DNA from: Desulfofarcimen acetoxidans DSM 771
GTDB lineage: Bacteria > Bacillota > Desulfotomaculia > Desulfotomaculales > Desulfofarciminaceae
Length of the DNA: 64,000 nucleotides
NCBI RefSeq assembly: GCF_000024205.1
Contig: NC_013216.1
Location: 310,001-374,000, forward strand
Reading direction: 5' to 3'
This document shows positions 27,274 to 63,513 of the stretch, one piece after another. The first letter of the stretch is position 1. The number at the start of each line of letters is the position of its first letter. The notes below the pieces were generated by a model. The model saw only the letters and a program-made list of their open reading frames with translations, did no database searches and had not been told where the DNA came from. The position numbers were made by a program, and so were the translations under genes.

Positions 27274-27440
27274 TTGAAAACAGGGAAGGAATTTTATAGA
27301 TTATGGAGAATATATTTTAAAATAGCGGTACGAAGCCGTGCGAGATAGAATTAAAGGAAAATGAGTGTTTGTTAAACTTAATAAGCATATTTTACCATGA
27401 AGGTTTAACTCTCAGTAGAGAGTTGTTTCATGGTTTTTTT
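27274..27440 (+). promoter_or_regulatory. Dual AYGAA-hairpin leader A, upstream of methyltransferase and ABC operon
   Basis: Promoter TTGAAA (27274-27279) with TAGATT 17 bases on, or TATAGA at 15. Hairpin 1 is GCGGU-ACGAA-GCCGU (27325-27339, loop ACGAA). Hairpin 2 is ACC-ATGAA-GGT (27394-27404). Its ACCATGAA (27394-27401) can instead pair with TTCATGGT (27427-27434) to form a terminator with inner stem AACTCTC/GAGAGTT and a T7 tract. The two folds exclude each other. The promoter spacer block AACAGGGAAGGAATT recurs at 63349. The regulated gene starts at 27468. Confidence 0.75.
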
Positions 27441-27467: not shown

Positions 27468-28340
27468 TTGCAAATATCACAAGTAAGGAGCCGTGAGTTT
27501 TGGGAAAACGCTTGGAAAGAAGCCAGGGACAACTCACCGATGGTACGCAGGCGCTGCCGCATTGAACAGGAAATGGTAGATAACTGGAACCGGCGTGCCC
27601 AGTGGTTTGCCCGGCGTACAAGCGGTGCGAGGGGCGAGCAGAGGCAGAAAGCAGTATTTGATATGCTGGAACAGCAGGGTGTTTTAAATTCAGAGGTTAA
27701 GGTTTTGGATGTCGGGGCAGGTCCGGGTAATTTTGCTGTTCCTATGGCTCGCTTGGTCAGGGAGGTTACCGCTTTAGAACCCGCTCAGGAAATGATTAAA
27801 ATCATGGAAGACAGGGCCAGTACCGAAGAATTAAGTAATATTAATATAATCCAGCGCACCTGGCAGGATATAAATGTAGAGGAAGACGGTTTGGCAGGAG
27901 GTTTTGATTTGGTATTTGCCTCAATGACACCTGGGGTTCAGGATCCGGAAACACTGCAAAAACTAATTGCCGCATCAAAGAAATACTGCTATTACAGTTC
28001 TTTTTCCGGTAATCGCTGGAGTAAAGCCTATCATGATCTCTGGCGGTGTTTTTTCAATGAGGATATGGGTGATAATCCGGGGGACATCATTTATCCCTTG
28101 AATTTACTCTATGCTTTGGGTTACCGGCCCAGCCTTCACTTTTTTACCAACCGGCAGGTGCAGGAACAGCCGGCGGCGGAAGCAGTTGAAGAGCTGCTAA
28201 AATTTTTCTGGAGTTATATTGACATTACTTCAGAGGTCAGACAGGTAGTAGAAGAGTATGTGCAGAAAAACGTTCAGGATGGTATCCTTTGCCAATCAAC
28301 CACCGTTAGTTACGGTATGTTGCTGTGGCGGGTTGATTAA
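27468..28340 (+). CDS. Class I SAM-dependent methyltransferase
   Basis: 290 residues. Motif I is VLDVGAGPGNFAVPMARL (about residues 79-96), followed by an acidic strand end (TALEPAQEMIKIM). The start is TTG 27468 after GAGAGGAAG; the longer frame from 27369 runs back through the leader terminator and is not credible. It is the first gene of an operon with an Opp/Nik-type importer, so it may modify the imported compound or make a metal-binding one; the substrate cannot be read from the sequence. Confidence 0.8.
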   Translation: MQISQVRSREFWENAWKEARDNSPMVRRRCRIEQEMVDNWNRRAQWFARRTSGARGEQRQKAVFDMLEQQGVLNSEVKVLDVGAGPGNFAVPMARLVREVTALEPAQEMIKIMEDRASTEELSNINIIQRTWQDINVEEDGLAGGFDLVFASMTPGVQDPETLQKLIAASKKYCYYSSFSGNRWSKAYHDLWRCFFNEDMGDNPGDIIYPLNLLYALGYRPSLHFFTNRQVQEQPAAEAVEELLKFFWSYIDITSEVRQVVEEYVQKNVQDGILCQSTTVSYGMLLWRVD

Positions 28341-28531
28341 GGTTTCGGGTAATAAAAGTAAGGTTTCAAATGCGGCAGAGTACGCTTTAGAGGTTAATTC
28401 TAATGGAAGGGGTGAAAAGTCGGATTTGGTAATACCGGGAAGATGTTAATTATTTATGCAATAGTTTGTTAATGAGCCCGGTCAATTCAGTACATGTCAA
28501 GATTAAGTATGTTATGAAAGTAGGTGCAGTA

Positions 28532-30154
28532 ATGTTCAGGAAAAATTTATTAATAAAAATTGTCCTGACCTTGCTTTTTTCACTCAGTTTGCTCCTGTCG
28601 GGTTGTGGCACGGATAAATCAGGGAATGTCAAAGAAACTAATGCAGATGGGGGAGAAGCACAGGTAGACCTTATTAAGTTGGGCGGAGGGGACTGGGGTT
28701 ACCCGACTCCATATGCTCATTATCCCAGGGGTCCCGGTTCATTTAAAATGGCTATGATTTTTGATAGTCTTTTAGAGCGGGATGAAAAAGGACTTATTCC
28801 CTGGCTGGCTGAAAAATATGAAATTAAGGAAGACGGCAAGCAATACTTGTTTACCGTTAGAAACGGTGTCAAGTGGCAGGATGGGAAACCTTTGACCGCT
28901 GAGGATGTTAAGTTTTCTATTGAATATGCAAGTAAGTATCCTATGGTGTCGTCGGATATTGGAAGTAAAGACATTGAAAAAGTAGAGACGGCAGGGGAAA
29001 AGCAAGTTTTGGTGACGGTAGCGCAGCCCTCCGCCGGAATGCTCTATAATTTGGGCCATACCCGTATCATTCCCAAGCATATATGGGAAAAGATTGATAA
29101 GCCCAAGGAATTTACTCAACCGGAGGCAGTTATTGGCAGCGGGCCTTACCGTTTAACAGACTACAATAAGGAACACGGTACCTATCGTTTTGAGGCTTTT
29201 GAGGATTTCTGGGGACCAAAGCAAAGAGTTAAAGTGGTTGAATTTGTACCTGTCAGTGAGAGTATTCTGGCTTTTGAAAACGGTGAAATTGATTTAGCAG
29301 GCGTTACACCTGATGTATTGTCTCGTTTTCAAAAGGATCAGCAGTATAAAATTGTAAAAAGCCCTGGTTTCTGGGGATATCGTTTGCTCTTCAATATGAA
29401 AGATAATCCCATATTACAGCAAAAGGAACTGAGACAAGCAATCAGCTATGCTATGGATAAAAACGAACTGATCGAAAAGGTTGCCCGTGGGGCTGCTATT
29501 CCCGGCAGCGCAGGCATTCTGCCTCCTGATCATGTAATGTACAATCCTAAGGCTAAACAATATGAATTGAATCTTAAAAAAGCGGAAGAATTATTGGTTC
29601 AATTGGGTTATGACAGTTTGGATGAAAAAAGTATTCGTAAAAATAAAGATGGTTCCAGTCTTTCTTTCAACCTGTTGGTTGGCGGTGAAGTTAGACTGGC
29701 GGAAGTACTAAAAGAACAGTTGGCTAAAGCAGGTATTGGATTAAAAGTACAAAGTGTAGACAGCAAAAGCCGGGATGCTCGAGTGCTGAAGAATGAATAT
29801 CAGCTTGCTGTTACCGGACATGGCGGATGGGGTGGCGATCCTGATTACTTGAGCGAAAGATTTACCAGCGTGTCTAAGGGAGCAAGTTCCCCTTCTGCCG
29901 CCGCGCTGCGTGGCTACAATAATGTTGAGTTGAATACTTTATTAGAAAAACAGAACCTGGCAATGGATGAGCAGAAGCGTAAGAAATTAGTTTTTGATAT
30001 TCAAAATATTTTAGCTGAAGATGTACCGGAAATCCCTATCTACTATACTACCGGTTATTCTGTCTATAAACCGGCCAAGTATGATGGGTGGATGTTTATG
30101 TTTGATCACCATGAATTATCACACAGCAAGCTTTCTTACCTGGAAAGGAATTGA
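28532..30154 (+). CDS. ABC transporter substrate-binding lipoprotein (SBP_bac_5 family)
   Basis: Lipoprotein receptor of an oligopeptide/nickel-type importer. ATG 28532 gives 540 residues with a signal peptide and lipobox LLSGC (Cys25); the longer frame from 28466 puts 22 residues before the signal. A short conserved segment after the anchor, GDWGYPTPYAHYPRGPG, recurs in the paralogue at 45018 but not in the receptor at 54217. The cargo could be a peptide, a metal chelate or an opine-like compound. It follows the methyltransferase after 191 bases without a visible terminator. Confidence 0.88.
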   Translation: MFRKNLLIKIVLTLLFSLSLLLSGCGTDKSGNVKETNADGGEAQVDLIKLGGGDWGYPTPYAHYPRGPGSFKMAMIFDSLLERDEKGLIPWLAEKYEIKEDGKQYLFTVRNGVKWQDGKPLTAEDVKFSIEYASKYPMVSSDIGSKDIEKVETAGEKQVLVTVAQPSAGMLYNLGHTRIIPKHIWEKIDKPKEFTQPEAVIGSGPYRLTDYNKEHGTYRFEAFEDFWGPKQRVKVVEFVPVSESILAFENGEIDLAGVTPDVLSRFQKDQQYKIVKSPGFWGYRLLFNMKDNPILQQKELRQAISYAMDKNELIEKVARGAAIPGSAGILPPDHVMYNPKAKQYELNLKKAEELLVQLGYDSLDEKSIRKNKDGSSLSFNLLVGGEVRLAEVLKEQLAKAGIGLKVQSVDSKSRDARVLKNEYQLAVTGHGGWGGDPDYLSERFTSVSKGASSPSAAALRGYNNVELNTLLEKQNLAMDEQKRKKLVFDIQNILAEDVPEIPIYYTTGYSVYKPAKYDGWMFMFDHHELSHSKLSYLERN

Positions 30155-30160
30155 TTTTCT

Positions 30161-31141
30161 TTGAACAAGCAAAGGGTCACCAAACTGGCGGAATATGTTT
30201 TTACTGTTTGGATTATAGTGACTATCAATTTTATGCTTCCCCGGTCTATGCCAGGTGACCCCTTTTTGCACTTGTCAGCTGATGAAGGTGAGGAGATTAC
30301 GGTATTTTCGGAAGAACAAAGGAAATACTATCTTGCCTATTATGGTTTGGATCGTCCTGCCGGTGAACAGTATCTTTCCTATCTTTCTGAATTGCTGCAA
30401 GGAAATATGGGCTACAGTCTCTATTACAATGAACCGGTAAGCACGATTATTTTGCGCAGGCTGCCGTGGACAGCCTTTTTGGTAACGGCAGCAGTGGCTT
30501 TAAGTACTGTTATAGGCGCTTTTTTAGGCAGCATATCGGCCTGGTACCGGGGAAAGTGGGCCGATAAGTTCTTGTTTTTTAACTTAATTTTATTATCAGA
30601 GATTCCTGCTTTTCTACTGGCGCTTATCTTACTTTTTACCCTGGCTGCAGGTTTAGGCTTATTCCCTTTATCGGGTGCTATGACACATTTTGCAAATTAT
30701 GATAGCTGGTTGGAAAAGCTTTGGGATATAATACACCATGTTTTTTTGCCCACTATGGCCCTGACAGTCACCAGGTTGGGCAGTATGTATTTGCTTTCCA
30801 GAAACAGTATGATAACTGTATTGGCAAAGGATTATCTGCGTACTGCCCAGGCTAAGGGGCTTTCCCGGAAGCGCATTATTTTTAGCCATGCTTTGAGAAA
30901 CTCCCTGCTGCCCATAGTAACAAGAGTCTTTTTAAGTCTTGGTTCCTTGGTAGGAGGGGCGATTTTGGTGGAAAATGTATTTGCTTATCCTGGATTGGGA
31001 CATCTAATGAGAGAAGCGGTGATGTTTCACGATTACCCATTGGTTCAGGGAATTTTTTTAGCGGTTACTGTGTGTGTTTTAACGGCTAATTTTTTAGCTG
31101 ATTTAATTTATAGAAAGATTGACCCGCGGATTGCCGGTTAA
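30161..31141 (+). CDS. ABC transporter permease, OppB/NikB type
   Basis: 326 residues, about six membrane segments, with the BPD_transp_1 EAA-like loop (RTAQAKGLSRKRIIFSHALRNSLLPIV) near residue 225-250. The N-terminal MPGDPFLHL segment is typical of OppB/DppB. It starts at TTG 30161, seven bases after the receptor gene, with AAAGGAA ahead. Confidence 0.9.
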   Translation: MNKQRVTKLAEYVFTVWIIVTINFMLPRSMPGDPFLHLSADEGEEITVFSEEQRKYYLAYYGLDRPAGEQYLSYLSELLQGNMGYSLYYNEPVSTIILRRLPWTAFLVTAAVALSTVIGAFLGSISAWYRGKWADKFLFFNLILLSEIPAFLLALILLFTLAAGLGLFPLSGAMTHFANYDSWLEKLWDIIHHVFLPTMALTVTRLGSMYLLSRNSMITVLAKDYLRTAQAKGLSRKRIIFSHALRNSLLPIVTRVFLSLGSLVGGAILVENVFAYPGLGHLMREAVMFHDYPLVQGIFLAVTVCVLTANFLADLIYRKIDPRIAG

Positions 31142-31163
31142 GCAAAGCACGGAGAGGATAAGA

Positions 31164-32072
31164 TTGAGGAGAGCACAGGAGTTGCTTGTAAAAACATTTA
31201 AGCACAAATGGAAGTCGTCTGGATTTCCATTAAAATCTTTACCCGGGTTTTTGTCCAAACTTTCTTGGTCGGGGACAGCCGGTATAGCAGTGATTTTAGC
31301 GGTTCTGTTAATAGCTGTTCTTGCACCCTGGATTGCTGTCTACCCGCACAATCTTTCTTCCGGTGCACCTCTTTTACCGCCTGGTAAAGAACATTTTTTA
31401 GGCACCGATGAATTAGGTGTTGATCTCTGGGCCCAGATATGTTTTGGAGCCAGGGTCAGCCTGCTGGTGGGGCTGGGCACAGCTTTGCTGGCGGCTCTGG
31501 GTGGTGGTCTGATAGGCATTGCAGCAGGATATTCGGGTGGCTGGATCGATAAGCTGTTAATGAGATTAATAGATATTATGATTGTATTGCCTGATTTGCC
31601 GGTAATGATTGTTCTGGCAGCCTTTATCGGTCCCAGCCTGACGAACATTATTTTAGTGCTGGCTCTGTTTTCCTGGGTTTTTCCGGCCAGGATTGTGCGT
31701 TCCCAGGTACTGATGTTAAAAGAACAGAATTATATTAAGTCAGCGGAGACCTATGGAGCGGGTACCTGGTATCTAATACGGAGGCATTTTCTTCCCGAGC
31801 TTTTTCCTTTGCTGGCTGTGAATATGATCAGGCTTACGGGAAGAGCAATTGTTGCTGAAGCAGGACTTTCTTTTTTAGGGCTGGGAGATCCTACTTCAAA
31901 AAGTTGGGGTTTGATTTTACATCACGCTACCAGTTTTCGAGGAATCTATTATACCGATTTTTGGAAGTGGTGGCTTTTGTATCCCTGGCTGGCTCTGATG
32001 CTGATGGTAACTTCTCTGGCTTTTATCAGCCGTGAGCTGGAACGGATAGTTGATCCTCGTATGGGAAGGTAA
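31164..32072 (+). CDS. ABC transporter permease, OppC/NikC type
   Basis: 302 residues with the OppC landmarks HFLGTDELGVDLWAQICFGAR, the EAA-like loop SAETYGAGTWYLIRRHFLPELFP and the late GLSFLGLGDPTSKSWG motif. TTG 31164 after GGAGAGGA is preferred over an in-frame start at 31119 that overlaps the upstream gene. Confidence 0.88.
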   Translation: MRRAQELLVKTFKHKWKSSGFPLKSLPGFLSKLSWSGTAGIAVILAVLLIAVLAPWIAVYPHNLSSGAPLLPPGKEHFLGTDELGVDLWAQICFGARVSLLVGLGTALLAALGGGLIGIAAGYSGGWIDKLLMRLIDIMIVLPDLPVMIVLAAFIGPSLTNIILVLALFSWVFPARIVRSQVLMLKEQNYIKSAETYGAGTWYLIRRHFLPELFPLLAVNMIRLTGRAIVAEAGLSFLGLGDPTSKSWGLILHHATSFRGIYYTDFWKWWLLYPWLALMLMVTSLAFISRELERIVDPRMGR

Positions 32073-32099
32073 ATTGGTTTTTCAAAAGGGGATAGAACA

Positions 32100-33821
32100 G
32101 TGACTGCAGATGTAAAGTATTTGCTGGAAATAAATGATTTGTCGGTAACTTATGATACTGTGCACCCTCCGGTGACAGCTGTTGACGGTATTTCCCTTCA
32201 GCTTAGAAAAGGGGAAAGTCTGGGAATTATCGGCGAATCAGGCTGTGGAAAAAGTTCTTTAGCTTTGGCAATTATGGGCTTGATAAAAGAGGGTAGAGTT
32301 ACTGGTAATATAGTTTTTAAAGGTCATAATTTAACAGGTTTGTCGGAAAGTGAACTGCGCAAATATCGTTGGGACAATATTGCCATGGTATTTCAGAATT
32401 CGCTGGAGGTTCTCAATCCCGTGCTCAGCATTGGGAAGCAAATAGGAGAGCCTCTAAAGAGCCACTATGGCTTAGATTCAGCAGAGATTAACCGCAAAGT
32501 TATTGAATTATTAACTGCAGTAGGTCTGGAACCTGAGTGGAGAAACTGTTATCCGCATCAATTGTCAGGAGGTATGAGACAGAGGGTTCTCTTAGCCATG
32601 GCTTTAGCCTGTGAACCGGAATTGTTGCTTGTGGACGAACCTACCACGGCGTTGGATCCTTCAAGTAAAAATGAAATACTGTATCTACTTAAAAAATTAC
32701 AGAAAAAACTTAATTTTACCATGATTTTAATCTCTCACGATTTGGGAACTATTAAAAAGCTCACCTCCAGGGTTATGACCATGTACTGCGGTCAAGTGGT
32801 TGAAGCAGGGATTACTTCAGAGGTAATCAAAAGCCCTATGCATTGCTATACCAGGGGTTTGATGAATTCTTCCCCCAATTTTTTTAAATATAAAGATTTG
32901 TGGGGTATTGGCGGGGAACCACCTTCGGGAAGTATAGCGGAGGGCTGTACCTTTTATTCACGGTGCTGCCAGAGGGAAGAAACCTGTTCTCAGTCCAGGC
33001 CTTCTCTGGAATACGTGGCTCTTGAACGACTGGTGGCCTGTCACAAGGGAGGCATTGAAACCTTACTTAAGGCTGAAGGGATTAGTAAAAAATATACTTT
33101 GATCAACAAAGAAATTGAAGCGGTTAAAGGAGCCAGCCTGGAAATCAGAAGTGGTGAGGTAGTAGCGTTGGTGGGAGAATCCGGTTCAGGCAAATCTACA
33201 CTTGCTCATATTTTAGCAGGTGTTTTGCCGGTTGATGCGGGCCAGGTATTCTTTAAAAACAGAAAAATTGAAGGAAGATGGTCCACTAAAATGATAGGCG
33301 GGATGCAGATTATTTTTCAGGATTCTTTTTCTTCCACCAGTCACCGTATGAAGGTTTTGGAGGTTGCCAGGGAGCCGTTGGATATAATCAAATGGGGCAG
33401 TAAGAAAGAAAGAGAACAGGCAGCGACAGAGGCTTTACAGACAGTGCAGCTTCCGGTTTCCCCTGAATTCTTGCAGCGGTATTGCTGTGCTTTGAGTGGA
33501 GGACAGAGACAGCGTTTGGCTATAGCCAGGGCACTGTCAACAAAACCAAAGTTATTGATTGCAGACGAAGTAACGTCGATGCTGGATCCTTCAACTCAGG
33601 CCAATCTTTTAAGAGAACTCAAGTGGCTGCAAAATAGCTGTGGTTTTGCCATGCTGTATATTACTCATGATTTGCACCTGGCCAGAAAGATATCTGATAG
33701 GGTATATGTTATGTACCAGGGTGAAATTGTGGAAACGGGCGCAGCCTTTGAAATATTTGAGAATCCTGAGCATGTGTACACTAAGCAGCTTTTGCAAGAT
33801 GCTTTCAGTGATTTGGTTTAA
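32100..33821 (+). CDS. Fused double ATPase of the Opp/Nik-type importer (OppD-OppF in one chain)
   Basis: 573 residues with two complete ATPase domains. Domain 1 (about 8-250): Walker [36 protein letters not shown], then the oligopeptide C-terminal cysteine segment ([14 protein letters not shown]...RLVACHKGG). Domain 2 (about 320-573): Walker [36 protein letters not shown]. In domain 2 the usual DEPT is DEVT; the catalytic glutamate is kept. No stop or frame change lies between the domains. GTG start 32100. Confidence 0.9.
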
Positions 33822-34547: not shown

Positions 34548-34988
34548 ATGAAGGAAGCTTTTGAGCTATTACGAAAAAATGGATACAAAATTACACCCCA
34601 GCGACAGGAGATATTAAATACTATTATCGATACTGATAATAAAACCCCCCTAAGAGCTGAAGATATTTACCGAAAGGTTATCAAAAGGTATCCCAACGTT
34701 AGTGTTGATACGATCTACCGTAATCTGATTATCCTTTTAGATTTAGGAATTATCAAAGAAATAAATTTTAGAGATAGTAAAAGTCAGTATTACGAATTAA
34801 ATTTAGCAGATCACCACCATTATCTTATATGTTTAGGGTGCGGTGTTACGCAATCAATAGATTGTCCGCTTAAATCAGTGGATGAAGAAAAAATTGCTGA
34901 AGAAAAAAATTTTGAAATCAAAAAGCATAACCTTGAACTCTATGGGTATTGTGTCTTATGCCGGGAAAAAACCGAGGATAAATCATAA
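34548..34988 (+). CDS. Fur-family metal-responsive repressor (Zur candidate)
   Basis: 146 residues: winged helix with YKITPQRQEILNTI (about 12-25) and the recognition region NVSVDTIYRNLIILLDLG, then the dimer domain with the metal site DHHHYLICLGCG and two CxxC pairs (CLGC, CVLC) for structural zinc. It lies ahead of a ZnuABC-type operon, so a zinc sensor is the best guess. PerR or Fur function cannot be excluded from sequence alone. Confidence 0.88.
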   Translation: MKEAFELLRKNGYKITPQRQEILNTIIDTDNKTPLRAEDIYRKVIKRYPNVSVDTIYRNLIILLDLGIIKEINFRDSKSQYYELNLADHHHYLICLGCGVTQSIDCPLKSVDEEKIAEEKNFEIKKHNLELYGYCVLCREKTEDKS

Positions 34989-35223
34989 AATGAAATATTA
35001 TGATTTTTGAGAGGGGGGGATAATTTCTTATGGTATAAAGTATAAGCTTTTAGGAGGTGGCAGCTTAATCATTCTGTTGGAAGTAGAGATATGTCGGTTA
35101 TTAAAAGCATTAGCATTATGCAACCAGACATATATTTGATTATTGGGGTAGTTGGGCAGTAATTATGAGACCGGATTCAAGAATGTTCCGCATGGAAATA
35201 TAATAATTAGGAGGGCTGGCTAA

Positions 35224-36132
35224 ATGCGTAAAAATGTATTATTGATCACAATATTAGCAATTGTTTTTACTGTTTTTTTATCGGGTTGCCAGGTACAACC
35301 TACTATGGCTCCGGGAAAAACAGAAGCTAACAAAACACTTAACATTGTCACATCATTTTATCCTATGTATATAGCAACTATTAATGTTGCCAATAATATA
35401 CCAGGTGTAAAAGTTATTAATATGACACCACCTATGACCGGTTGTTTGCATGATTATCAATTAAGGCCTGATGATTTAAAAACACTTAGTGATGCTCAGA
35501 TATTCGTTATAAACGGCGCCGGCATGGAGGCATTTATGGATAAAGTAGTAAGTCAACAACCAAATTTAAAAATTGTTGATGCAACCAAGGGTATACAACT
35601 TATTAAAGGCCACGGAGAGGAAGGCGATAATCCTCACGTATGGGTAAGTATAACAAACGCTATGCAGCAGGTAAAAAACATTGGCTTGCAATTGGCTGCT
35701 CTTGATCCGGAGCATGCTGCTCAGTATAGTGCTAATACCAACATTTACACAAATAAGCTTGAGGTTCTCCGTGTTAAAATGCACCAGGCAATAGATGGAG
35801 CTAAAAACCGGGATATTATTACTTTTCACGAAGCATTTCCCTATTTTGCCCAGGAATTTAACCTCCGCATTGTATCTGTTATAGAAAGGGAGCCAGGTTC
35901 AGAACCAAGCGCTGCTGAATTGGCAGATACCATTGAAATCATTAAAAAATCCAATATTAAGGCACTTTTCTCTGAGCCCCAGTATTCTGTTAAAGCTGCT
36001 GAGACTATTGCCAACGAAACCGGGGCAAAAATGTATACTTTAGATCCAGCGGTAACCGGTCCCATGGAACCGAATGGGTATATAAAAATAATGGAATCCA
36101 ACATGGAAATCTTACAAAAGGCGTTGAATTAA
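35224..36132 (+). CDS. znuA: Zinc/manganese-type ABC transporter binding lipoprotein (ZnuA-like)
   Basis: 302 residues, signal peptide with lipobox FLSGC (Cys22), then the cluster A-I receptor fold. Metal ligand candidates are H in GCLHDYQLRP, H in NPHVWVS, H in TFHEAFPYF, and E/D in LFSEPQYS and YTLDPAV. A short HGEEGDNPH loop replaces the long histidine-rich loop of many ZnuA. Site AGGAGG before ATG 35224. Neighbours support zinc; manganese is possible. Confidence 0.87.
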   Translation: MRKNVLLITILAIVFTVFLSGCQVQPTMAPGKTEANKTLNIVTSFYPMYIATINVANNIPGVKVINMTPPMTGCLHDYQLRPDDLKTLSDAQIFVINGAGMEAFMDKVVSQQPNLKIVDATKGIQLIKGHGEEGDNPHVWVSITNAMQQVKNIGLQLAALDPEHAAQYSANTNIYTNKLEVLRVKMHQAIDGAKNRDIITFHEAFPYFAQEFNLRIVSVIEREPGSEPSAAELADTIEIIKKSNIKALFSEPQYSVKAAETIANETGAKMYTLDPAVTGPMEPNGYIKIMESNMEILQKALN

Positions 36133-36951
36133 ATGACTTCTACCGGCATTATAGAGCAATTAAATAGAAAAAGTTGTGGTTTGTGTTGCACCAAGTTAAA
36201 AAACTTTGGAGTAACTGTAGGCGGAAAAAAAATCATACATGATATAGATATCCATATTCATTGTGGTGAATTAACGGCATTGATTGGCCCCAATGGGGCC
36301 GGCAAAACTACGTTATTAAAGGCCATTCTTGGTGAAATTCGTTATACCGGTGAATTATTATTCCTTGATGCTGATAATTGCCGCAGGAATCCCGTTGTAG
36401 GCTATGTACCCCAAAAGATTGATTTTGATGCCAGTGCGCCAATCAGTGTACTGGATTTGTTTGCAGCAAGTATGTCAGCTTGGCCGGTTTTCCTCGGCTA
36501 TTCTCGCCGGTTTCGGGAAGATGTGGCTGCAAGCTTGACTGGTGTTAACGCGGAACACTTATTGGACAGGCGCCTTGGTGAGTTATCGGGAGGAGAACTG
36601 CAAAGGGTTCTCCTTGCCATGGCTCTCAATCCTAATCCTGATCTTTTATTGCTCGATGAGCCGATTTCCGGTATTGATGTACGGGGCAGAGAATTATTTT
36701 ATGAACTGGTTTCTAATTTACGTCAAAATTATGACTTGTCTATTATATTAGTATCGCATGATTGGTCATTAATGTCACAATATGCAGATCGTATCGTTTT
36801 CCTTGACCGGACAGTTCAGTTCTGTGGTAAACCGGATGAGGTCTTTGCCAATGAAAACTTATTGCGTTATTGTGGACCGGTTCTTATTAATAGTATCAAC
36901 CAAAACCGCCTAAAACCAAAAATTTTTTCCAGATATGGGGATCTTGTATGA
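36133..36951 (+). CDS. znuC: Zinc/manganese-type ABC transporter ATPase (ZnuC-like)
   Basis: 272 residues with Walker A GPNGAGKTT (about 56-64), [15 protein letters not shown] and LLLLDEPISGID. The start ATG 36133 follows the receptor stop directly. An N-terminal extension of about 20 residues carries SCGLCCTKL, two close cysteines unusual for the family. Confidence 0.88.
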   Translation: MTSTGIIEQLNRKSCGLCCTKLKNFGVTVGGKKIIHDIDIHIHCGELTALIGPNGAGKTTLLKAILGEIRYTGELLFLDADNCRRNPVVGYVPQKIDFDASAPISVLDLFAASMSAWPVFLGYSRRFREDVAASLTGVNAEHLLDRRLGELSGGELQRVLLAMALNPNPDLLLLDEPISGIDVRGRELFYELVSNLRQNYDLSIILVSHDWSLMSQYADRIVFLDRTVQFCGKPDEVFANENLLRYCGPVLINSINQNRLKPKIFSRYGDLV

Positions 36952-37799
36952 TGGCAATATGGTATAATATGGTTGATTATGTTTTGCCCTTTGCCTGGGC
37001 ACATCATATCTTTATGAAGAACGCTTTGTTGGCAGTATTATTGGTTGGTCCCATGTTTGCTATTATAGGAACAATGGTTGTAAGCAATAGGATGGCTTTT
37101 TTTTCTGATACAATAGGACATTCTGCTTTGACTGGCATCGCTATAGGTGTAATTCTGGGTTACCAGGATCCGTTGTGGATTATGACGTTTTTTTCTATAT
37201 TTCTGGCTATTGTTGTTTCAATATTAAAATCTGTTTCTTCTGTTTCCACTGATACAATTATAGGGGTGGTTTCTGCTACCATGGTATCTTTGGGAATTGT
37301 TATTCTCTCTCGCGGAGGTGGTTTTAACAAGTTTTCACGCTTTCTAATTGGCGATTTATTGAGTATTACCCCCAGAGAGGTATTATTGTTGGCGCTTACG
37401 CTTGGTGGAGTCATTCTTCTTTGGTTTATCATGTTCAACAAGTTCTTAATGGTCAGCATAAACCACTCCCTGGCGCTCAGCAGAGGTATTCCGATCCGCT
37501 TGATAGAAATTCTATTTTGTATTGCAACTGCGGTTATTATAACTATTTCGATTCAATGGGTTGGTGTTTTAATTATCAATTCACTATTGATTTTACCGGC
37601 TGCTGCAGCACGTAATATAGCAGAAAATATGCGACAGTACCATATAATTGCCATACTGATAAGCATTATTTCAGGAATAGCAGGACTGATATCATCATAC
37701 TACTTATCAACAGCAACAGGAGCAACCATAGTGTTGTTTGCAGCGATGTTTTATATAGGTACGTTTTTACAAAAATTTAGGCTATTTAAGTTTAGGTAA
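36948..37799 (+). CDS. znuB: Zinc/manganese-type ABC transporter permease (ZnuB-like)
   Basis: 283 residues, about eight membrane segments, ABC-3 family. Landmarks: VSNRMAFFSDTIGHSALTGIAIG near residue 45 and LLILPAAAARNIAENM near residue 215. It overlaps the ATPase gene by four bases (ATGA). Confidence 0.88.
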   Translation: MMAIWYNMVDYVLPFAWAHHIFMKNALLAVLLVGPMFAIIGTMVVSNRMAFFSDTIGHSALTGIAIGVILGYQDPLWIMTFFSIFLAIVVSILKSVSSVSTDTIIGVVSATMVSLGIVILSRGGGFNKFSRFLIGDLLSITPREVLLLALTLGGVILLWFIMFNKFLMVSINHSLALSRGIPIRLIEILFCIATAVIITISIQWVGVLIINSLLILPAAAARNIAENMRQYHIIAILISIISGIAGLISSYYLSTATGATIVLFAAMFYIGTFLQKFRLFKFR

Positions 37800-37883
37800 T
37801 AGCAGCTATTATGATAAACAATAAAATGCTAAAGTCTCGATTACATAATTTAATAATAACCGGTTTTTTTTATAAGGAGTTTT

Positions 37884-38927
37884 ATGATGTATCAAACGGC
37901 GACAATAAAGCGAAGCCTAAAATGCTTTTTCTTTGTTTTTGTTTTTGTATACCTGATAATATTGTTGGGTCCACAAACTCGACTGATATTTAATGCAATT
38001 CAGAAAGAGACTTTTAGCAATTTGCATTTGATTTTTTTTAGCATCATCGTGGAAGCTCTGCCTTTTGTAATATTAGGTGTTATAGGTTCTATGCTTCTTG
38101 AAACATTTGTTTCCCCGGATTTAGTCCGCAGATTATTACCCCGGACCTGGTTATTAGGCATACTTGTTTCCGGATTATTGGGTATTCTGTTTCCGTTTTG
38201 TGAATGTGGTCTTGTGCCTATAGTTCGCCGGCTTATGGAAAAAGGCGTTCCTGCACCTTTGGCTACGGTTTTTCTTTTGACGGTGCCTGTTATAAACCCT
38301 GTGGTTGGAGCAGCAACCCACTTTGCTTTTTTTAACCGGCCGGATTTTATGTACTGGCGGCTCGGAGGAGCATATATTATAGCAATCACTGTTGGTTTTA
38401 TAATTCTTCGTACCTGGAGAGGGAAAAACCCTTTAAAACAAAGCAATTATTATCATTCCTGTGGCTGTGGTTGTGAGTATGGTTATTCATATAAAATTAA
38501 TAGACCTCTTGGAAATCGATTAGTGGGTGCTTTTGAGCATGCGCAGCAAGAATTCTTCAGTATTATGCAATACCTGATCATCGGAGCTTTTTTAGCGTCG
38601 TCCGCTCAAGTATTTTTACCGAGATTGTGGCTGACCGCAGCAGGTTCACACCCTGTCGGCTCTGTCGGTGTAATGATGGGACTGGCTTTTTTCCTGTCAA
38701 TTTGCTCCGGCGCAGACGCATTTGTCGCCAATACCTTTGTAAATATTTTTACACCTGGATCTTTGGTAGCTTTCATGGTTTTTGGTCCAATGGTTGATCT
38801 GAAAAATCTTATGATGATGTTATCAGCCTTTAAAGTGAGATTTGTGGTAAGGTTGGTTTTCTCTGTAACAATACTGGCGCTTACCCTTGGGGTTATGATA
38901 AACAAAATGGGGGTGATAGCCAGATGA
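37884..38927 (+). CDS. YraQ/UPF0718-type permease
   Basis: 347 residues with about eight membrane segments. Family landmarks: FPFCECGLVPIVRRLMEKGVP near residue 110 and the LTVPVINPVVGAATHFAFF repeat; a second similar region is near SICSGADAFVANTF. A cytoplasmic loop holds a cysteine cluster (CGCGCEYG). The function is unproven; such permeases often sit next to DUF1980 proteins and metal genes. Two adjacent in-frame ATGs (37884, 37887) both fit the AAGGAG site. Confidence 0.85.
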   Translation: MMYQTATIKRSLKCFFFVFVFVYLIILLGPQTRLIFNAIQKETFSNLHLIFFSIIVEALPFVILGVIGSMLLETFVSPDLVRRLLPRTWLLGILVSGLLGILFPFCECGLVPIVRRLMEKGVPAPLATVFLLTVPVINPVVGAATHFAFFNRPDFMYWRLGGAYIIAITVGFIILRTWRGKNPLKQSNYYHSCGCGCEYGYSYKINRPLGNRLVGAFEHAQQEFFSIMQYLIIGAFLASSAQVFLPRLWLTAAGSHPVGSVGVMMGLAFFLSICSGADAFVANTFVNIFTPGSLVAFMVFGPMVDLKNLMMMLSAFKVRFVVRLVFSVTILALTLGVMINKMGVIAR

Positions 38928-39730
38928 AGTCTCTTGTTCGTTTACTGGCCCTGTTAATCTTAAACTATACTTTATTAAAACTTTTAAAAACAGAGCAGAT
39001 CACATATTATATAAACCCCCGCTTTATTCCCTTAACAAAGTTTGCGCTGGTATTTTTAATGATTTTATCTTTGTTTACTTTAAATGATTTACTCCGTGCA
39101 TTTAAATCAAAAGAGAATGGTTTTTGGTCCCTAAAAGGTGTTCCCTTTTTATTGCTGCTGGCTGTTTTGACCCCCTTAGCTTTTTCCCCAAAGGTTTTGG
39201 ACAGTTCCATGGCTAACCAGAAGGGTATGATTTCATATCAACAGGGATCTCAAGATCAAGCACAGGATAATAGTATTAATAGAACGAGTACATCGCCAAA
39301 CGAGAACGACCTGCAAAGTGTTCAACAATTAGACGATAGCAGCAGTAAAAATCGAGCGACCCAGACCGGCCCGGTAGCCAGTACTAACGGAGTTTTTCAA
39401 CTTAATGATAACAACTACTATATATTCATAGGTGACCTGTATAATAACAAGGACAAATATATTGGCAAAGAAATTGAGGTCGACGGGTTTATCATGCACA
39501 TAGATCTACTGGGGCCCAATCAGTTTCTGGCGGCTCGTTATTTAATGGCATGTTGTGCAGCAGATGCTTCCGTTATTGGGTTTGCAGTTGAGAGTAAAGC
39601 TCCATATCCTGATAATACATGGGTTAGGGTACGAGGTAAGCTGACAAAAATAGATGATAACGGTCCATATCTAAAGCTGACTAAAATACAACGGATTACG
39701 CAACCTGCTGATCCGTATATTTATCCATAG
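38924..39730 (+). CDS. TIGR03943/DUF1980-family membrane protein
   Basis: 268 residues: two to three N-terminal membrane segments, a polar linker rich in Gln, Asn and Ser (about 105-150), and a C-terminal OB-like domain with the family motif RYLMACCAADASVIGF. It overlaps the YraQ-type permease gene by four bases, the usual pairing for this family, so the two probably form one transport unit. Confidence 0.85.
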   Translation: MKSLVRLLALLILNYTLLKLLKTEQITYYINPRFIPLTKFALVFLMILSLFTLNDLLRAFKSKENGFWSLKGVPFLLLLAVLTPLAFSPKVLDSSMANQKGMISYQQGSQDQAQDNSINRTSTSPNENDLQSVQQLDDSSSKNRATQTGPVASTNGVFQLNDNNYYIFIGDLYNNKDKYIGKEIEVDGFIMHIDLLGPNQFLAARYLMACCAADASVIGFAVESKAPYPDNTWVRVRGKLTKIDDNGPYLKLTKIQRITQPADPYIYP

Positions 39731-39782
39731 CTACAGTAAAAATATGTAATTATTTAGACTTATTGTAAGGAGGGTGAGCTTA

Positions 39783-40784
39783 ATGGGTAAGAAAATTCCT
39801 GTTACTATTATTTCAGGTTTTTTGGGAGCAGGTAAAACAACTTTGATTCAAAAACTGTTGGAGGAATGTTTTCAAGGCGAAAGAATTTTTTTATTGGAAA
39901 ATGAATTTGGACGGGTAGGCATAGATGGTTCTTTACTTTCTCAATATAAAGTGGAGATGAGAGAAATATATTCAGGTTGTATATGTTGTTCCTTGAAGGG
40001 TGATTTTACTAACGCATTGATTGATGCACTGGACAAAGTAAAACCCCAAAGAATTTTAATTGAGCCCACCGGAGTAGGTAAACTTTCAGAAATCATTAGT
40101 GTTTTGGAACAATCCATATTTCAAGATAAATTAGCAATAGACCAGATCATCACGGTAGTTGATGCCCAAAAGTCCCTGAGCTTTCTTAAGAACTTCGGTG
40201 AATTTTTTAAAGACCAAGTGCGTCGTGCCAAAACCCTGATTTTAAGCAAAACACAAAAGGTAGCCTGGCAAGAGGTCCAGACACTGATACAGGAGCTTCG
40301 TATTTTAAATTCGGAGGCCTTATGTGTGACTACTCCCTGGAACCAATTAACCGGAACACAAATTCTCTCCAAGGGCACCTCTTTAGAAAAATATTTAAAT
40401 CTTGTAAATTCACCAGTCTCGGCAAAACCCACGTTTCGTATAAAATTTGGTACCCAGCACAGAAGTGGACACTCCGGTGTAGCCCACACAACAAAAGAAG
40501 CTTTCCAGAGTTGGTCCTGGGAAAGCCCAAAGGTTTTCAAAGAAGCTGCCTTAGAAAAATTATTGTCAAGGCTGGAAAAGGAGACGAGCTTCGGAACGGT
40601 TATACGTGCTAAAGGATTTGTGCCGGGATTGAATGGATGGTTGCATTTCGAATATGTCAGCGGCGATTGGAACATTTCTACCGGGTCCCCGCAGTCTATC
40701 GGACGGGCAGTTGTTATTGGTCAAGGTTTACAAGAGGAACGCTTGAAACATCTCTTTGGAGGCGCGGTTTATGAGGGTTGTTGA
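39783..40784 (+). CDS. CobW/ZNG1-family GTPase (metal chaperone type)
   Basis: 333 residues: Walker A GFLGAGKTT, the metal-binding hallmark GCICCSLKGDF (CxCC), and EPTGVGK switch region, followed by a CobW C-terminal domain. Members in zinc operons hand zinc to essential enzymes under shortage. ATG 39783 after AAGGAGGG is preferred; GTG 39774 is in frame but overlaps the site. It overlaps the next gene by 14 bases. Confidence 0.88.
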   Translation: MGKKIPVTIISGFLGAGKTTLIQKLLEECFQGERIFLLENEFGRVGIDGSLLSQYKVEMREIYSGCICCSLKGDFTNALIDALDKVKPQRILIEPTGVGKLSEIISVLEQSIFQDKLAIDQIITVVDAQKSLSFLKNFGEFFKDQVRRAKTLILSKTQKVAWQEVQTLIQELRILNSEALCVTTPWNQLTGTQILSKGTSLEKYLNLVNSPVSAKPTFRIKFGTQHRSGHSGVAHTTKEAFQSWSWESPKVFKEAALEKLLSRLEKETSFGTVIRAKGFVPGLNGWLHFEYVSGDWNISTGSPQSIGRAVVIGQGLQEERLKHLFGGAVYEGC

Positions 40785-41397
40785 TATAGTTCAGGGTTTT
40801 CTTGACTCCGGTAAAACTACATTAATTGATGTTTTGATTCGAGAGGTATTATCCAATGAAACCATTCTGGTTATCCAAACTGAGTGTGGTGAATGCCAAC
40901 TCCCCGATTATGGCTCACGCGTGAAGGTTGTATCTTGGGATTGGGAAAAGGGGTTTCCCTTGACTGAAATGCGTAAGCTGGTGCTTATGCCTGGTTTTAA
41001 CCGGGTTATCTTTGAAGTAAACGGGATGGCTCCGGTAGAAGAATTGCTTGACAGTCTGGAGGTTATGCAAAGACGGGGCGAAATTACTATTGGCGGACGC
41101 ATGGCTGTTTTTTACGGTCCTATATGGCAAGTGATGGGTAAGCCTATGGAGGATCTTTTTCGCCGTATGGCTTTATCTTCCCAAGGGTTTTGGCTAAGGG
41201 AGGGAAGCAATGATCTTTATAATTTTATTTCGCAGGTTCAACCCAAAGGGTGCAAAACTTCCGGTGGCGAATGGTTATCCTGGTATTACAGTACCGTTGA
41301 TTCTGACCGCTATTTCCCGGTTAAAAAAATAGCTAAGGCGGCGGCAATTGTTGTAGGAATGCTTCTTTTTTATGGATTTCTTTATCTCAAGATTTAA
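40771..41397 (+). CDS. Small CobW-like P-loop protein with C-terminal membrane anchor
   Basis: 208 residues: P-loop GFLDSGKTT at the start (CobW has GFLGAGKTT), a TECGECQLPDYG segment in place of CxCC, and a single hydrophobic C-terminal helix (about 186-206). It lacks the CobW C-terminal domain. Gene overlap with the full CobW gene suggests that both act together, here at the membrane. I do not know a studied member. Confidence 0.75.
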   Translation: MRVVDIVQGFLDSGKTTLIDVLIREVLSNETILVIQTECGECQLPDYGSRVKVVSWDWEKGFPLTEMRKLVLMPGFNRVIFEVNGMAPVEELLDSLEVMQRRGEITIGGRMAVFYGPIWQVMGKPMEDLFRRMALSSQGFWLREGSNDLYNFISQVQPKGCKTSGGEWLSWYYSTVDSDRYFPVKKIAKAAAIVVGMLLFYGFLYLKI

Positions 41398-41659: not shown

Positions 41660-42802
41660 CTATTTAACTTCCTCCATTATGCCAAGCTTAATCAAAGGAT
41701 TTACTCCCGCTGCTTGGAGTGCTGTAAGTTCCTCTGCACTGGCAACGTTAAATTGTTTCAATGTTGAAACCATGATTTCCGGCTGATTTACATAATCCAT
41801 CATGGTTAACGCGGTTTTTAGTTTCACAAAAGGACCCGCAGCGTTTTGCACCCCTGCCAATTCACTGGCTTTATCAAAGTCAAAAGCCAGAACCAACCCG
41901 CTTCCGGTATTTGTTTTTGCGTCCCAGCGAATGTATATTCCGGCAACTCCTTTGGCATTGTCAGGAAGCATTTTCTTCTGTTCTTCAGTCAGATCGCTTG
42001 CAAACATACCCTTTTTCCCGACCGTTGCATCATATATTACCTGTAGAGCGTCATCTTTGCACCAGGATGGGACAGCAAAAATTTTATATGATTGTCCTTG
42101 TTGTAAAGGTAAATTCTTATCCAAATATTTACTTATTAAATACCCGCTGTTCACACCCGGGCAGATATGATTATGAAATTGGGCGGCCTGCAAAAAATCA
42201 AAGGTGCATTTGGGGTGTGCCCAAATACTGGCGATGCCTATTAAGCTTGATTCATTTCCACCGAATACTTTGTTATTTATTTTTTCATTCCATTTATCAG
42301 GATTATTATATAAGTCATCTAACTTTATATTTTCTTTGGCAATAATATTAAATATCTGGTTGTCGGCAAGTTTATTAAGTTCATCTACGGATTTATTAAC
42401 AACTGCGCTGTTTACTTGCAGGTAGATAAAATCTCTGGTGTCTTCCTTGAAAAAAGCAAACCAAAGAGGCAGTTCTTTACTGCGGTGAATCATCAATAAA
42501 TTGCTCCCGCCTGTGGTACATCCTGAAGCGGCTATTACACCGTCAATACATTTTTCGGTAGTTTGACCGCTAATAATCGAATAACCGGCATCAGTCATGG
42601 CCAGTACATTAGCATCGCCTTTAGTAAAGGATAACTGCTGCATTGCAATATTTGTCGCTTTGACGCCTAATAAATGCAGGGAGGTTACCTTTCCTTTACC
42701 AACTAAATTTTCTATATCCGCTGTTGTCCCCTGGGCTAAAACAAGGCCCGGGAGAACAAAAAGCATGCACAGCAATACACATACTGCTGTTGTTTTTCTC
42801 AT
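41660..42802 (-). CDS. Secreted FmdE-domain protein
   Basis: 380 residues with a clear signal peptide (cleavage after VLAQG, about residue 24). The FmdE domain hallmark FHNHICPGVNSGYLISKYL is near residues 208-226; it is the metal site of subunit E-like proteins of molybdenum/tungsten formylmethanofuran dehydrogenase. Two further segments (GCTTGGSNLL, CKDDALQVIYD) carry cysteines. Extracytoplasmic FmdE proteins are of unknown role. It is the last gene of the CooC-TrmO-FmdE unit. Confidence 0.82.
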   Translation of the reverse strand: MRKTTAVCVLLCMLFVLPGLVLAQGTTADIENLVGKGKVTSLHLLGVKATNIAMQQLSFTKGDANVLAMTDAGYSIISGQTTEKCIDGVIAASGCTTGGSNLLMIHRSKELPLWFAFFKEDTRDFIYLQVNSAVVNKSVDELNKLADNQIFNIIAKENIKLDDLYNNPDKWNEKINNKVFGGNESSLIGIASIWAHPKCTFDFLQAAQFHNHICPGVNSGYLISKYLDKNLPLQQGQSYKIFAVPSWCKDDALQVIYDATVGKKGMFASDLTEEQKKMLPDNAKGVAGIYIRWDAKTNTGSGLVLAFDFDKASELAGVQNAAGPFVKLKTALTMMDYVNQPEIMVSTLKQFNVASAEELTALQAAGVNPLIKLGIMEEVK

Positions 42803-42844: not shown

Positions 42845-43297
42845 TTATTGTTTGGCTGACTGTACTGATTCCAGCCATCCTATACACGCGTCTGGAACCA
42901 TATCTACCTTATTGCTGTAAGGTTTTATGTCCAAAAGAGGACTTTGATCCAACGCATCAACGCCCTTAACTTTCAATATATTGTCCTTTACTTCCAATAA
43001 TTGTGCCACACAAACAGCTACCGGATTAGGACGGTTTGGGGAACGACAAGAAAATACACCCCGCGGTTCTTCACCAAAAGGGGTTTTAGCCAGCAGTGTT
43101 TCGCGGTCACTTAAGTGCCCCCAATACAATACGATGATGTGAGATACTGTTTCAATATCTTTTAAACCGGCCATGTATTCCTGATTTATTTCCAGATAAG
43201 AGATATTCTCTTTAAAACGACCCTGAAAAGGCGCCTGGCTTTTTTCCTTATAATCGCTGATTATTCTGCCGATTGGTTTTAAAATATAGTTTACCAT
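42845..43297 (-). CDS. TrmO/TsaA-family protein
   Basis: 150 residues. The family signature GVFSCRSPNRPNPVAVCVAQLL and the following GVDALDQSPLLDIKPY are intact. TrmO methylates N6 of t6A37 in tRNA in Enterobacteria, but many members sit next to metal or cofactor genes and may methylate other compounds. It overlaps the CooC-like gene by seven bases. Confidence 0.85.
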   Translation of the reverse strand: MVNYILKPIGRIISDYKEKSQAPFQGRFKENISYLEINQEYMAGLKDIETVSHIIVLYWGHLSDRETLLAKTPFGEEPRGVFSCRSPNRPNPVAVCVAQLLEVKDNILKVKGVDALDQSPLLDIKPYSNKVDMVPDACIGWLESVQSAKQ

Positions 43298-44070
43298 ATT
43301 TCCCTCTCCAAATATGCCTGAATGTCCTTAACAGCTTCTATCGCTGTATCACCTTCCACCGGAGTGCCGTTTAAACAAGCTTCCGCCACAGCTTGATCAA
43401 ATGGGATAACTCCAATCGGCATAATGCCCCTTTTTTTCAACTCTACCTGCATGGACGGCACAACATTTGGGTTAGCTTTACTGATAACTGCCTGGCAAGG
43501 AATATTTGCCTCACTTGTCATAGCAAATACTTTCTCGGCCAGCAATACGGATTCGAAAGAAGGTTCTATACTAAGCAGAACCATGTCTGCCGCTGCATCA
43601 ATGCCGCGACCCAGGTGCTCAATACCGGCTTCGGTATCTACCAGTACCAGCTGTTTTTCTCCCGGTATCTTAGAAAAAAACTCGCGAGCTACAACACCCA
43701 TCGGGCAAGCGCAACCTTCTTTGACATGGTGCACTTTTCCTACAACCACCATCGATATGTTTTTGCCGTCAGAACTGATGCAATCAGGATCTATTGATTC
43801 TGTACTGCTCAACAATGAAAACTCCACTTCTTTCTGCTGCTGGGACAAAGCTGCTCTTAATTTGCCGCCAACCTCCTTTTTGCCGCCAAGATAATCCAAT
43901 AAGGATTTTTCCGGCATGGGTATGCCAAGCATTCGTGAAAGCCCTAGATTTGATTCATCAGCATCAACTATCAGCACCTGATACCCTTTGTCCGCAGAGA
44001 CTTTCGCCAGAAGAGTTGTCAAAACACTTTTTCCACTACCGCCTTTTCCGCATACGACAATTTTAGGCAT
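43291..44070 (-). CDS. CooC-like MinD/NifH-family ATPase
   Basis: 259 residues with the deviant P-loop GKGGSGKSVLTTLLA at the N-terminus, then DADESNLGLSRMLG and VDTEAGIEHLGRGID, both typical of CooC, the nickel-insertion ATPase of carbon monoxide dehydrogenase. A CACPMG motif near residue 118 matches the CooC metal site pattern. ATG 44070 after AAAGGA is preferred; ATG 44079 is in frame. No CODH gene is in this window, so the client is open. Confidence 0.85.
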   Translation of the reverse strand: MPKIVVCGKGGSGKSVLTTLLAKVSADKGYQVLIVDADESNLGLSRMLGIPMPEKSLLDYLGGKKEVGGKLRAALSQQQKEVEFSLLSSTESIDPDCISSDGKNISMVVVGKVHHVKEGCACPMGVVAREFFSKIPGEKQLVLVDTEAGIEHLGRGIDAAADMVLLSIEPSFESVLLAEKVFAMTSEANIPCQAVISKANPNVVPSMQVELKKRGIMPIGVIPFDQAVAEACLNGTPVEGDTAIEAVKDIQAYLEREIW

Positions 44071-44186
44071 GTAAATCATCCTTTCCCTTTTTGTAATAAT
44101 GTATATTTACTCCTTTTGAGCAAATAATCTTATCTTATCAGTCCAGTTATTAGTTGAAACTGTTCTTTAAAGAGCTAAATGCAAAT

Positions 44187-44321
44187 AAAAAACCATGAAA
44201 GACATTGTCTTATCCCAACAAGACAATGACCTTCATGGTCATTAATTGATCTTTAATCTTTGTAAATTAAGATTTTAAACTAAATTGCAATTATCTTACA
44301 TAAAATACCTTCATGGTATTA
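44187..44321 (-). promoter_or_regulatory. Dual AYGAA-hairpin leader F, upstream of the CooC operon
   Basis: Read on the minus strand: hairpin 1 AATACC-ATGAA-GGTATT (44320-44304), then hairpin 2 AATGACC-ATGAA-GGTCATT (44243-44225, 7 bp). The ACCATGAA of hairpin 2 can instead pair with TTCATGGT (44199-44192) in a long terminator whose inner stem is CATTGTCTT/AAGACAATG, followed by six T. The CooC-like gene starts 117 bases further on. Confidence 0.75.
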
Positions 44322-44618: not shown

Positions 44619-44776
44619 TTGTCTTTTATTAAGAATTGTTGTAAAATTCTATAATAGAAGCAGCATGAAGCTGCTTCTATTATAGAATTTCTTAGTGTCC
44701 TTAGTGTCAATTGAATATTAATAATTAGACCATGAAGGTTATGTCGCTTTAGCGGTATTTTTTCATGGCCTTTTTT
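44619..44776 (+). promoter_or_regulatory. Dual AYGAA-hairpin leader G, upstream of the second ABC operon
   Basis: Promoter TTGTCT (44619-44624), 17 bases, TAAAAT (44642-44647). Hairpin 1 is a perfect 21-bp inverted repeat with loop ATGAA (arms 44644-44664 and 44670-44690, inner pairs GCAGC/GCTGC); its left arm begins inside the -10 box. Hairpin 2 is ACC-ATGAA-GGT (44729-44739). Its CCATGAA can pair with TTCATGG (44762-44768) in a terminator with inner CGC-TTTA-GCG and a T6 tract. The ABC receptor gene starts at 45018; about 240 bases lie between, without another recognised feature. Confidence 0.78.
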
Positions 44777-55815: not shown

Positions 55816-55903
55816 TTTATCACCTCGTGTATGGGATTTTAAATCAATTTCCATTTATCTTTTGCTTTATATAAACTATAATCACCCCCTGAAACTATAA
55901 AAT

Positions 55904-56023
55904 AAAAAACCATGAAAGATATTATCTTGCTTCTACAAGAAAATTACCTTCATGGTCTATAATTGATTTTAACTTTTTATACCCTTGTCTTTGAATAAAA
56001 TACCTTCATGGCACTTTATTATA
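55904..56023 (-). promoter_or_regulatory. Dual AYGAA-hairpin leader H, upstream of the NikA-like operon
   Basis: On the minus strand a TATAAT box (56023-56018) lies just before hairpin 1, GUGCC-AUGAA-GGUAU (56014-56000, two G-U pairs). Hairpin 2 is ACC-ATGAA-GGT (55956-55946). Its ACCATGAA can pair with TTCATGGT (55916-55909) in a long terminator (inner arms near TTATCTTG/CAAGA) with six T. The receptor gene starts 89 bases later. The stretch between hairpins shares TCAATTA-AGACC with leaders F and G. Confidence 0.75.
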
Positions 56024-56176: not shown

Positions 56177-56349
56177 TTGACAAATTGTTCTTTCCTGCTG
56201 TAAGATGAATAACATCAAAATTAAATTGGCGGCATGAAGCCGTATAAAATTCTGATCTATCTTTATTCCAAAATTTAAAGCTGTCAAAAAATATACCACG
56301 AAGGTATTTGCCGTTAATTTGCGGCATTGACCTTGTGGTATTTATTTTT
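56177..56349 (+). promoter_or_regulatory. Dual AYGAA-hairpin leader B, upstream of methyltransferase and exporter-fold ABC pair
   Basis: Promoter TTGACA (56177-56182), 18 bases, TAAGAT (56201-56206). Hairpin 1 is GCGGC-ATGAA-GCCGT (56229-56243), the same stem position as in leader A with U to C in the closing pair. Hairpin 2 is ATACC-ACGAA-GGTAT (56293-56307). Its TACCACGAAGGT can pair with ACCTTGTGGTA (56330-56340, one bulged base) in a terminator with inner GCCG/CGGC and a T-rich tail. The regulated gene starts at 56511; the gap after the terminator holds nothing else I recognise. Confidence 0.75.
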
Positions 56350-56510
56350 CGCTTAGCCGTTTTGAGCTACCTCCTTAATTCTTATCGGAACTGTGGGTTA
56401 CATCTGCTCGCAGTTCCAGCATTTTTTCAAGAGTTTGAAGCAGTTATGACGTGACAGTTATTTACTATTACTTATCAAGGACTAAAATATTTTTGAAAGG
56501 AAGATGATTG

Positions 56511-59042: not shown

Positions 59043-59050
59043 GACGGGGG

Positions 59051-62559: not shown

Positions 62560-62605
62560 TTGACATAAATGCATATAATGTATTATGATAACGATAATCA
62601 TTATC
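62560..62605 (+). promoter_or_regulatory. Promoter with overlapping Fur box
   Basis: TTGACA (62560-62565), 18 bases, TATGAT (62584-62589). GATAACGATAATCATTATC at 62587-62605 matches the classic 19-base Fur consensus at 18 positions and overlaps the -10 box, so bound iron-Fur would block the promoter. The DUF3793 gene starts 115 bases on. The remaining 62395-62559 stretch shows no gene. Confidence 0.85.
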
Positions 62606-62719
62606 AATAATTGTAAGTTGGCTTAAAATCTTAACTTAAGAATAATTGCTGCCCGGGAGAGGTACCAGGGAACAAATGTTTCTAAAATTATTTTTCTTAG
62701 GGAGGAAAAAAATAAACTA

Positions 62720-63342: not shown

Positions 63343-63513
63343 TTGTTAAACAGGGAAGGAATTCTATAAATTATAGAGAATATGTTTATAACAACGACGA
63401 GAAGTCGTTTGCCGCGCATTCGAGGGAAATGTATGATGATTTATTAGAGTTTAATAGGGATATTTCTTACCACGAAGGTATGCCTGTAAAAAGGGTACAT
63501 TTCGTGGTTTTTT
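63343..63513 (+). promoter_or_regulatory. Dual hairpin leader C, upstream of a small ORF and IS end
   Basis: Promoter TTGTTA (63343-63348), 16 bases, TATAAA (63365-63370), with spacer block AACAGGGAAGGAATT as in leader A. Hairpin 1 is AACGAC-GAGAA-GTCGTT (63393-63409; loop GAGAA, an exception to AYGAA). Hairpin 2 is TACC-ACGAA-GGTA (63468-63480). Its ACCACGAA can pair with TTCGTGGT (63501-63508) in a terminator with T5. Between the hairpins it shares GGGAAATG and the TTTAATA stretch with leader A. Confidence 0.72.

Follow-up and report, generated by a model that had tools for sequence, protein, structure and literature searches.

In acetogens, sulfate reducers and other anaerobes, the enzymes that depend on nickel include hydrogenases, lactate racemase and CO dehydrogenase/acetyl-CoA synthase. 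RNA-level control by nickel or cobalt is exemplified by the NiCo (czcD) riboswitch, whose four-helix aptamer switches on export at high metal levels. Uptake systems such as NikABCDE and NikMNQO/NikKMLQO are targets of NikR, which works on DNA, at the initiation step. Among the NikABCDE-bearing genomes in a survey of 540 bacteria, fewer than half had NikR, from which NikR-independent regulation was suggested (PMC2667541). In layout, the closest described systems are the ANTAR antiterminators (EutV at eut, NasR at nasF and AmiR at amiE), in which two like-looped hairpins precede the genes, the 5' arm of the second doubles as that of an intrinsic terminator, and one regulon is served by many leaders. 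The leader described here resembles ANTAR antiterminators in the way it works, without belonging to them: ANTAR leaders carry A1/G4 hexaloops and serve a nitrogen regulon, whereas this one has (N)NGRA loops, a long free linker and metal-uptake genes behind it. We consider it fairly probable that it belongs to a widespread family of transcription attenuators that controls nickel uptake, and that a dimeric protein in its metal-free form holds the antiterminator hairpin.

The window, meaning the whole 64-kb stretch of DNA that was analysed, contains six copies of the leader (Table 1). In the first of them (leader A), ACCATGAA pairs either with the adjoining 3' GGT or with TTCATGGT at 27427-27434. 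The first fold is P2, a hairpin of 3 bp (ACC at 27394-27396, loop ATGAA, GGT at 27402-27404) with a computed energy of -0.8 kcal/mol. In the second fold, ACCATGAA/TTCATGGT forms the outer half of a two-part terminator stem of -19.5 kcal/mol, with AACTCTC (27407-27413) and GAGAGTT (27418-27424) as the inner stem and a run of seven T at 27434-27440. The initial annotation had described these exclusive folds, and its bases and coordinates for 27394-27440 can be read directly in the sequence. It had also placed the same exclusion at five other sites, and all five have it; two of them (44192-44239 and 55909-55956) are minus-strand copies, and the copy given as 44730-44768 starts one base earlier, at 44729. 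At each of the six sites, an 8-nt arm, ACCAYGAA, can pair with GGT (P2, pentaloop AYGAA) or with a downstream TTCRTGGT before the T-run, with a one-base bulge in the terminator stem of the copy at 56294. The combination of P2, complementary arm and T-run occurs six times in the window and not once in 100 dinucleotide-preserving shuffles.

Table 1. Leader elements and associated genes, in window coordinates.
Feature	Position	Strand	Basis or remark
Sigma-H-like promoter AGGAATT-n-GAGAAT (predicted), ahead of leader A	27287..27311	+	pattern match
P1 of leader A, GCGGT-ACGAA-GCCGT	27325..27339	+	
P2 (antiterminator) of leader A, ACC-ATGAA-GGT	27394..27404	+	
Intrinsic terminator of leader A, excludes P2, T7	27394..27440	+	folding energy
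SAM methyltransferase, first gene behind leader A	27468..28340	+	start inferred
ABC operon after the SAM methyltransferase: NikA-like binding protein, permeases, double ATPase	28466-33821		
FmdE, behind leader 44186..44239	41660-42802	-	
TrmO, behind leader 44186..44239	42845-43297	-	
ParA/MinD-like ATPase, behind leader 44186..44239	43291-44079	-	
P2/terminator, leader of 43291-44079	44186..44239	-	
P1 AATACC-ATGAA-GGTATT, leader of 43291-44079	44304..44320	-	
P1, 21 bp, loop ATGAA	44644..44690	+	
P2/terminator, leader of ABC operon starting 45018 (SBP_bac_5)	44728..44776	+	
NikA (TIGR02294 equivalog, 734 bits)	54217-55854	-	behind leader 55903..55956
P2/terminator, leader of 54217-55854 and ABC operon down to 50406	55903..55956	-	
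P1, 11 bp, loop ATGAA	55994..56020	-	
P1 GCGGC-ATGAA-GCCGT	56229..56243	+	
P2/terminator with one bulge, leader of methyltransferase 56508-57260 and two ABC exporters (57315-60814)	56294..56350	+	
Sigma-H-like promoter (predicted)	63357..63381	+	pattern match
P1 AACGAC-GAGAA-GTCGTT	63393..63409	+	
P2/terminator	63468..63513	+	

The two folds differ greatly in stability. Across the six copies, P2 has computed energies of -0.8 to -8.3 kcal/mol and the terminator -15.1 to -29.5 kcal/mol (z -3.4 to -7.0). The stem of the small hairpin spans 3-8 bp, where the initial annotation had 3-7; folding both states, a calculation proposed there, puts the terminator ahead of P2 by more than 10 kcal/mol. Since the terminator outweighs P2 to this extent, read-through would need a factor that holds P2. 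Comparative evidence bears on both folds. In an alignment of 64 divergent homologues, pairing holds in 99.6% of cells for the terminator stem and in 94.9% for P2, with 24 double-sided changes in each, and sliding the pairing partner abolishes it in both. Furthermore, the GG on the 3' side of P2 is invariant, yet the modelled terminator stem leaves it unpaired. Because both structures are paired with double-sided changes and the GG that serves P2 alone does not vary, both are kept by selection. The energies and these conserved bases together support the earlier claims that the two folds exclude each other and that something must hold the weak hairpin.

All six window copies have a second hairpin upstream, P1, whose loop resembles that of P2. 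Under a strict rule (at least 5 bp, loop (N)NGRA closed by C-G), P1 was found at 93 of 201 sites, compared with 0.9 in shuffled sequence; the remaining 108 have no match to the rule, some of them with hairpins just outside it and some with none. When any loop was admitted, the most frequent upstream loops were C-AGAA-G, C-TGAA-G, C-CGGA-G, C-CGAA-G, C-ATGAA-G, C-AAGAA-G and C-ACGAA-G. The loop and its closing C-G are conserved while the stems are free (69 distinct 5-bp stems among the 93), as expected if the loop is the part that is read, and the linker to P2 varies from 13 to 100 nt with a median of 44. Promoters were assessed with a two-box test, a plain count of TATAAT before P1 being uninformative in AT-rich DNA. 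Strong -35/-10 pairs precede P1 in 26 of the 93 leaders, compared with 3 in shuffles, and the -10 box mostly ends 7-15 nt before P1; P1 is therefore at the very start of the transcript or close to it. In addition, sigma-H-like promoters (AGGAATT-n-GAGAAT) stand ahead of 11 of the 93 leaders, several of them in the genome that holds the window, compared with 0.5 in shuffles, and might link nickel uptake to stationary phase or sporulation.

How widespread is this leader? A covariance model of P2 and the terminator finds about 22 copies in the genome that holds the window, copies in 29 of 60 relatives, and motif-positive genomes at 66 of 398 in a phylum sample; under its strict filters the model misses real sites, for example in genome G132, so that counts of motif-negative genomes are upper bounds. 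A search for the exact pattern across 84,980 species genomes gave at least 117 stretches, and among those listed are Clostridia, Desulfotomaculia, Syntrophomonadia, Sporomusa and several Desulfobacterota. The searched literature, which comprised open-access published papers, yielded no description of nickel attenuators of this sort, of DUF4198 in connection with nickel, or of DUF3842. Some copies have unusual settings. Two complete leaders stand in tandem before one gene at genome positions 487635/487737 (L009) and in three other genomes (G001:C17, L077; G018:C58, L058; G057:C51, L065). Strong copies at 462046 (+) and 971760 (+) of the own genome (L016, L017) have no obvious same-strand gene behind them, and the latter reads as a terminator on both strands.

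The genes behind the leader are mostly nickel/cobalt uptake systems of the NikKMLQO/CbiM and NikABCDE kinds. First genes in other genomes (n=91) include 22 for DUF4198 (NikK-type), 14 for CbiM/NikM, 9 for NikB-type permeases, 7 for NikA-type binding proteins, 7 for ECF S components, 6 for FmdE and 5 for DUF3842. The leader also precedes or adjoins the genes for LarE and LarC, which act in synthesis of the nickel-pincer cofactor. In the window, the targets are the NikA operon, two more operons with family-5 binding proteins, the ParA/TrmO/FmdE trio and methyltransferases; elsewhere in the genome they are CbiM/NikM with neighbouring transporter genes, Peripla_BP_2, a tetrapyrrole methylase and others. 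For the last leader in the window, the next same-strand gene encodes a family-5 binding protein and is reached past a minus-strand ORF of 570 aa (genome 373749-375461), which is probably a transposase. Genes for nickel transport and insertion thus stand behind the leader, as membership of a nickel regulon demands, together with genes that are not necessarily linked to nickel (ZnuA-like, CN_hydrolase, fumarase and DUF1835). Cobalt is hinted at by the annotation of CbiM as a cobalt transporter and by one tetrapyrrole methylase behind a tandem leader. Judged by gene content, the regulated set would be in the main a nickel regulon, and cobalt may also be sensed. CCAYGAAGG with a terminator, and an NGRA hairpin upstream, offer a sequence handle for predicting nickel genes, which extends to genes of unknown function such as DUF3842.

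NikR would do the same job on the same targets, but it almost never co-occurs with the P1-P2 RNA. Of 59 motif genomes, 54 lack any NikR_C match, and the other five show only partial-length matches of 22-27 bits. A strong NikR is present in 1 of the 66 motif-positive genomes of the phylum sample, as against 50 of the 332 others, a motif-negative count that is an upper bound (p=0.001). The RNA thus appears to stand in for NikR, and for the studied genomes with P1-P2, most of which have no NikR, it is a concrete and testable answer to how nickel uptake is controlled. The initial annotation did not extend to how large the family is, to its nickel regulon or to the absence of NikR.

These features can be combined into a mechanism. 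The transcript would start at or just before P1 (loop C-[N]NGRA-G), continue through the variable linker, and then reach P2 (ACC-AYGAA-GGT), whose 5' arm is also that of the terminator. With no factor bound, the terminator would win. When nickel is scarce, an RNA-binding protein, probably dimeric and metal-free, would bind the two like loops and hold P2, so that RNA polymerase reads into the nickel-uptake genes; when nickel is present, the protein would let go and transcription would stop. The two like loops suggest a dimer by analogy with ANTAR systems (PMC3369931), and the metal-free form should be the binder, since it is under nickel scarcity that uptake genes have to be read. The initial annotation had left open whether a protein or a ligand is bound. 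We lean towards a protein: P1 and P2 have the C-[N]NGRA-G loop in common whereas their stems and the linker are free to vary, and a metal ion that stabilised P2 would turn on uptake just when it is not wanted. The family would then point to an undiscovered RNA-binding metal sensor. The broader proposition, that the main nickel switch of anaerobic Bacillota and Desulfobacterota consists, in place of NikR, of a new class of RNA together with RNA-binding nickel sensors of a new family, seems to us evenly balanced.

Direct sensing by the RNA, with Ni2+, Co2+ or a nickel cofactor as the ligand and no protein, is unlikely, even though CCAYGAAGG is strongly conserved, the regulon consists of metal uptake and no universal partner protein was found among the families tested. 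Conserved sequence is scant outside the two loops and the linker is free; with P2 stabilised by its ligand, uptake would be on at times of abundant metal; and in the window and 17 motif loci no Rfam 15 family, the NiCo riboswitch included, rises above its gathering cut-off, the only matches being at chance level (E about 1).

With a protein preferred, the best co-occurring family among those tested is DUF3842 (PF12953), a small Rossmann-like protein. It is present in 58 of 59 and in 65 of 66 motif-bearing genomes versus 116 of the 332 others (p=1e-24), is absent from the motif-free genomes of family f3 that were tested, and lies in 22 motif loci next to nickel transporters (e.g., L102:1337-1777 and L022:928-1368). 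However, two motif genomes (G079 and G096) are missing it, seven genomes with strong NikR have it and just one of these has the motif, and its predicted fold is Rossmann-like, with malate dehydrogenase or UbiX-like proteins as the nearest matches and none among RNA-binding proteins. DUF3842 is often itself behind the motif and may be a regulon member only. It is therefore a weak candidate and is doubtful as the binding factor, which is more likely encoded elsewhere. FmdE was also considered as a universal factor and rejected; it is dispensable, since G046 and 9 of 50 further genomes lack it.

An ANTAR protein of the EutV/NasR/AmiR kind would account for the two small like-looped hairpins, the second overlapping the terminator (PMC3369931), and the own genome encodes two ANTAR response regulators. 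The loops, however, are tetra- or pentaloops (N)NGRA closed by C-G and not A1/G4 hexaloops, the linker of 13-100 nt (median 44) compares with 5-12 in E. faecalis eut, and ANTAR (PF03861) is dispensable, being absent from 8 of 35 motif-bearing genomes, whose completeness is unreported, including isolates of Tepidibacter, Fervidicella, Desulfobacter vibrioformis and Syntrophaceticus. ANTAR membership is rejected on these three grounds; it is largely refuted and we regard it as very improbable. Equally remote is attenuation by a leader peptide, or by plain partial terminators that answer to no specific signal: some own-genome linkers hold an ATG, but linker ATGs are rarer than in shuffles (41 versus 53) and a ribosome site with a start occurs in just 4 of 93 linkers, on which counts the peptide is rejected, and plain terminators would leave P1 and the GG of P2 unconserved.

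The protein-bound attenuator remains our preferred reading, and several observations in its surroundings can be added. The two ANTAR response regulators of the genome lie within 3929311-3936407 (L001, L002), about 4 kb apart, one of them beside a probable glutamate-synthase gene. In the window, a Fur-family regulator followed by a ZnuA-type binding protein, an ABC ATPase, an ArsP-type permease and a CobW-type protein occupies 34548-41397, with no P1-P2 leader ahead of it, and a Fur-box-like palindrome, TGATAACGATAATCATTATCA, is found at 62583-62610 upstream of a DUF3793 gene (62720). SAM methyltransferases recur as the first genes behind the leader, in company with Nik-type ABC transporters, both in the window (27468-28340 and 56508-57260) and at other loci (L014, L020, L079 and L082); these methyltransferases perhaps serve a metallophore or metal-related methylation.
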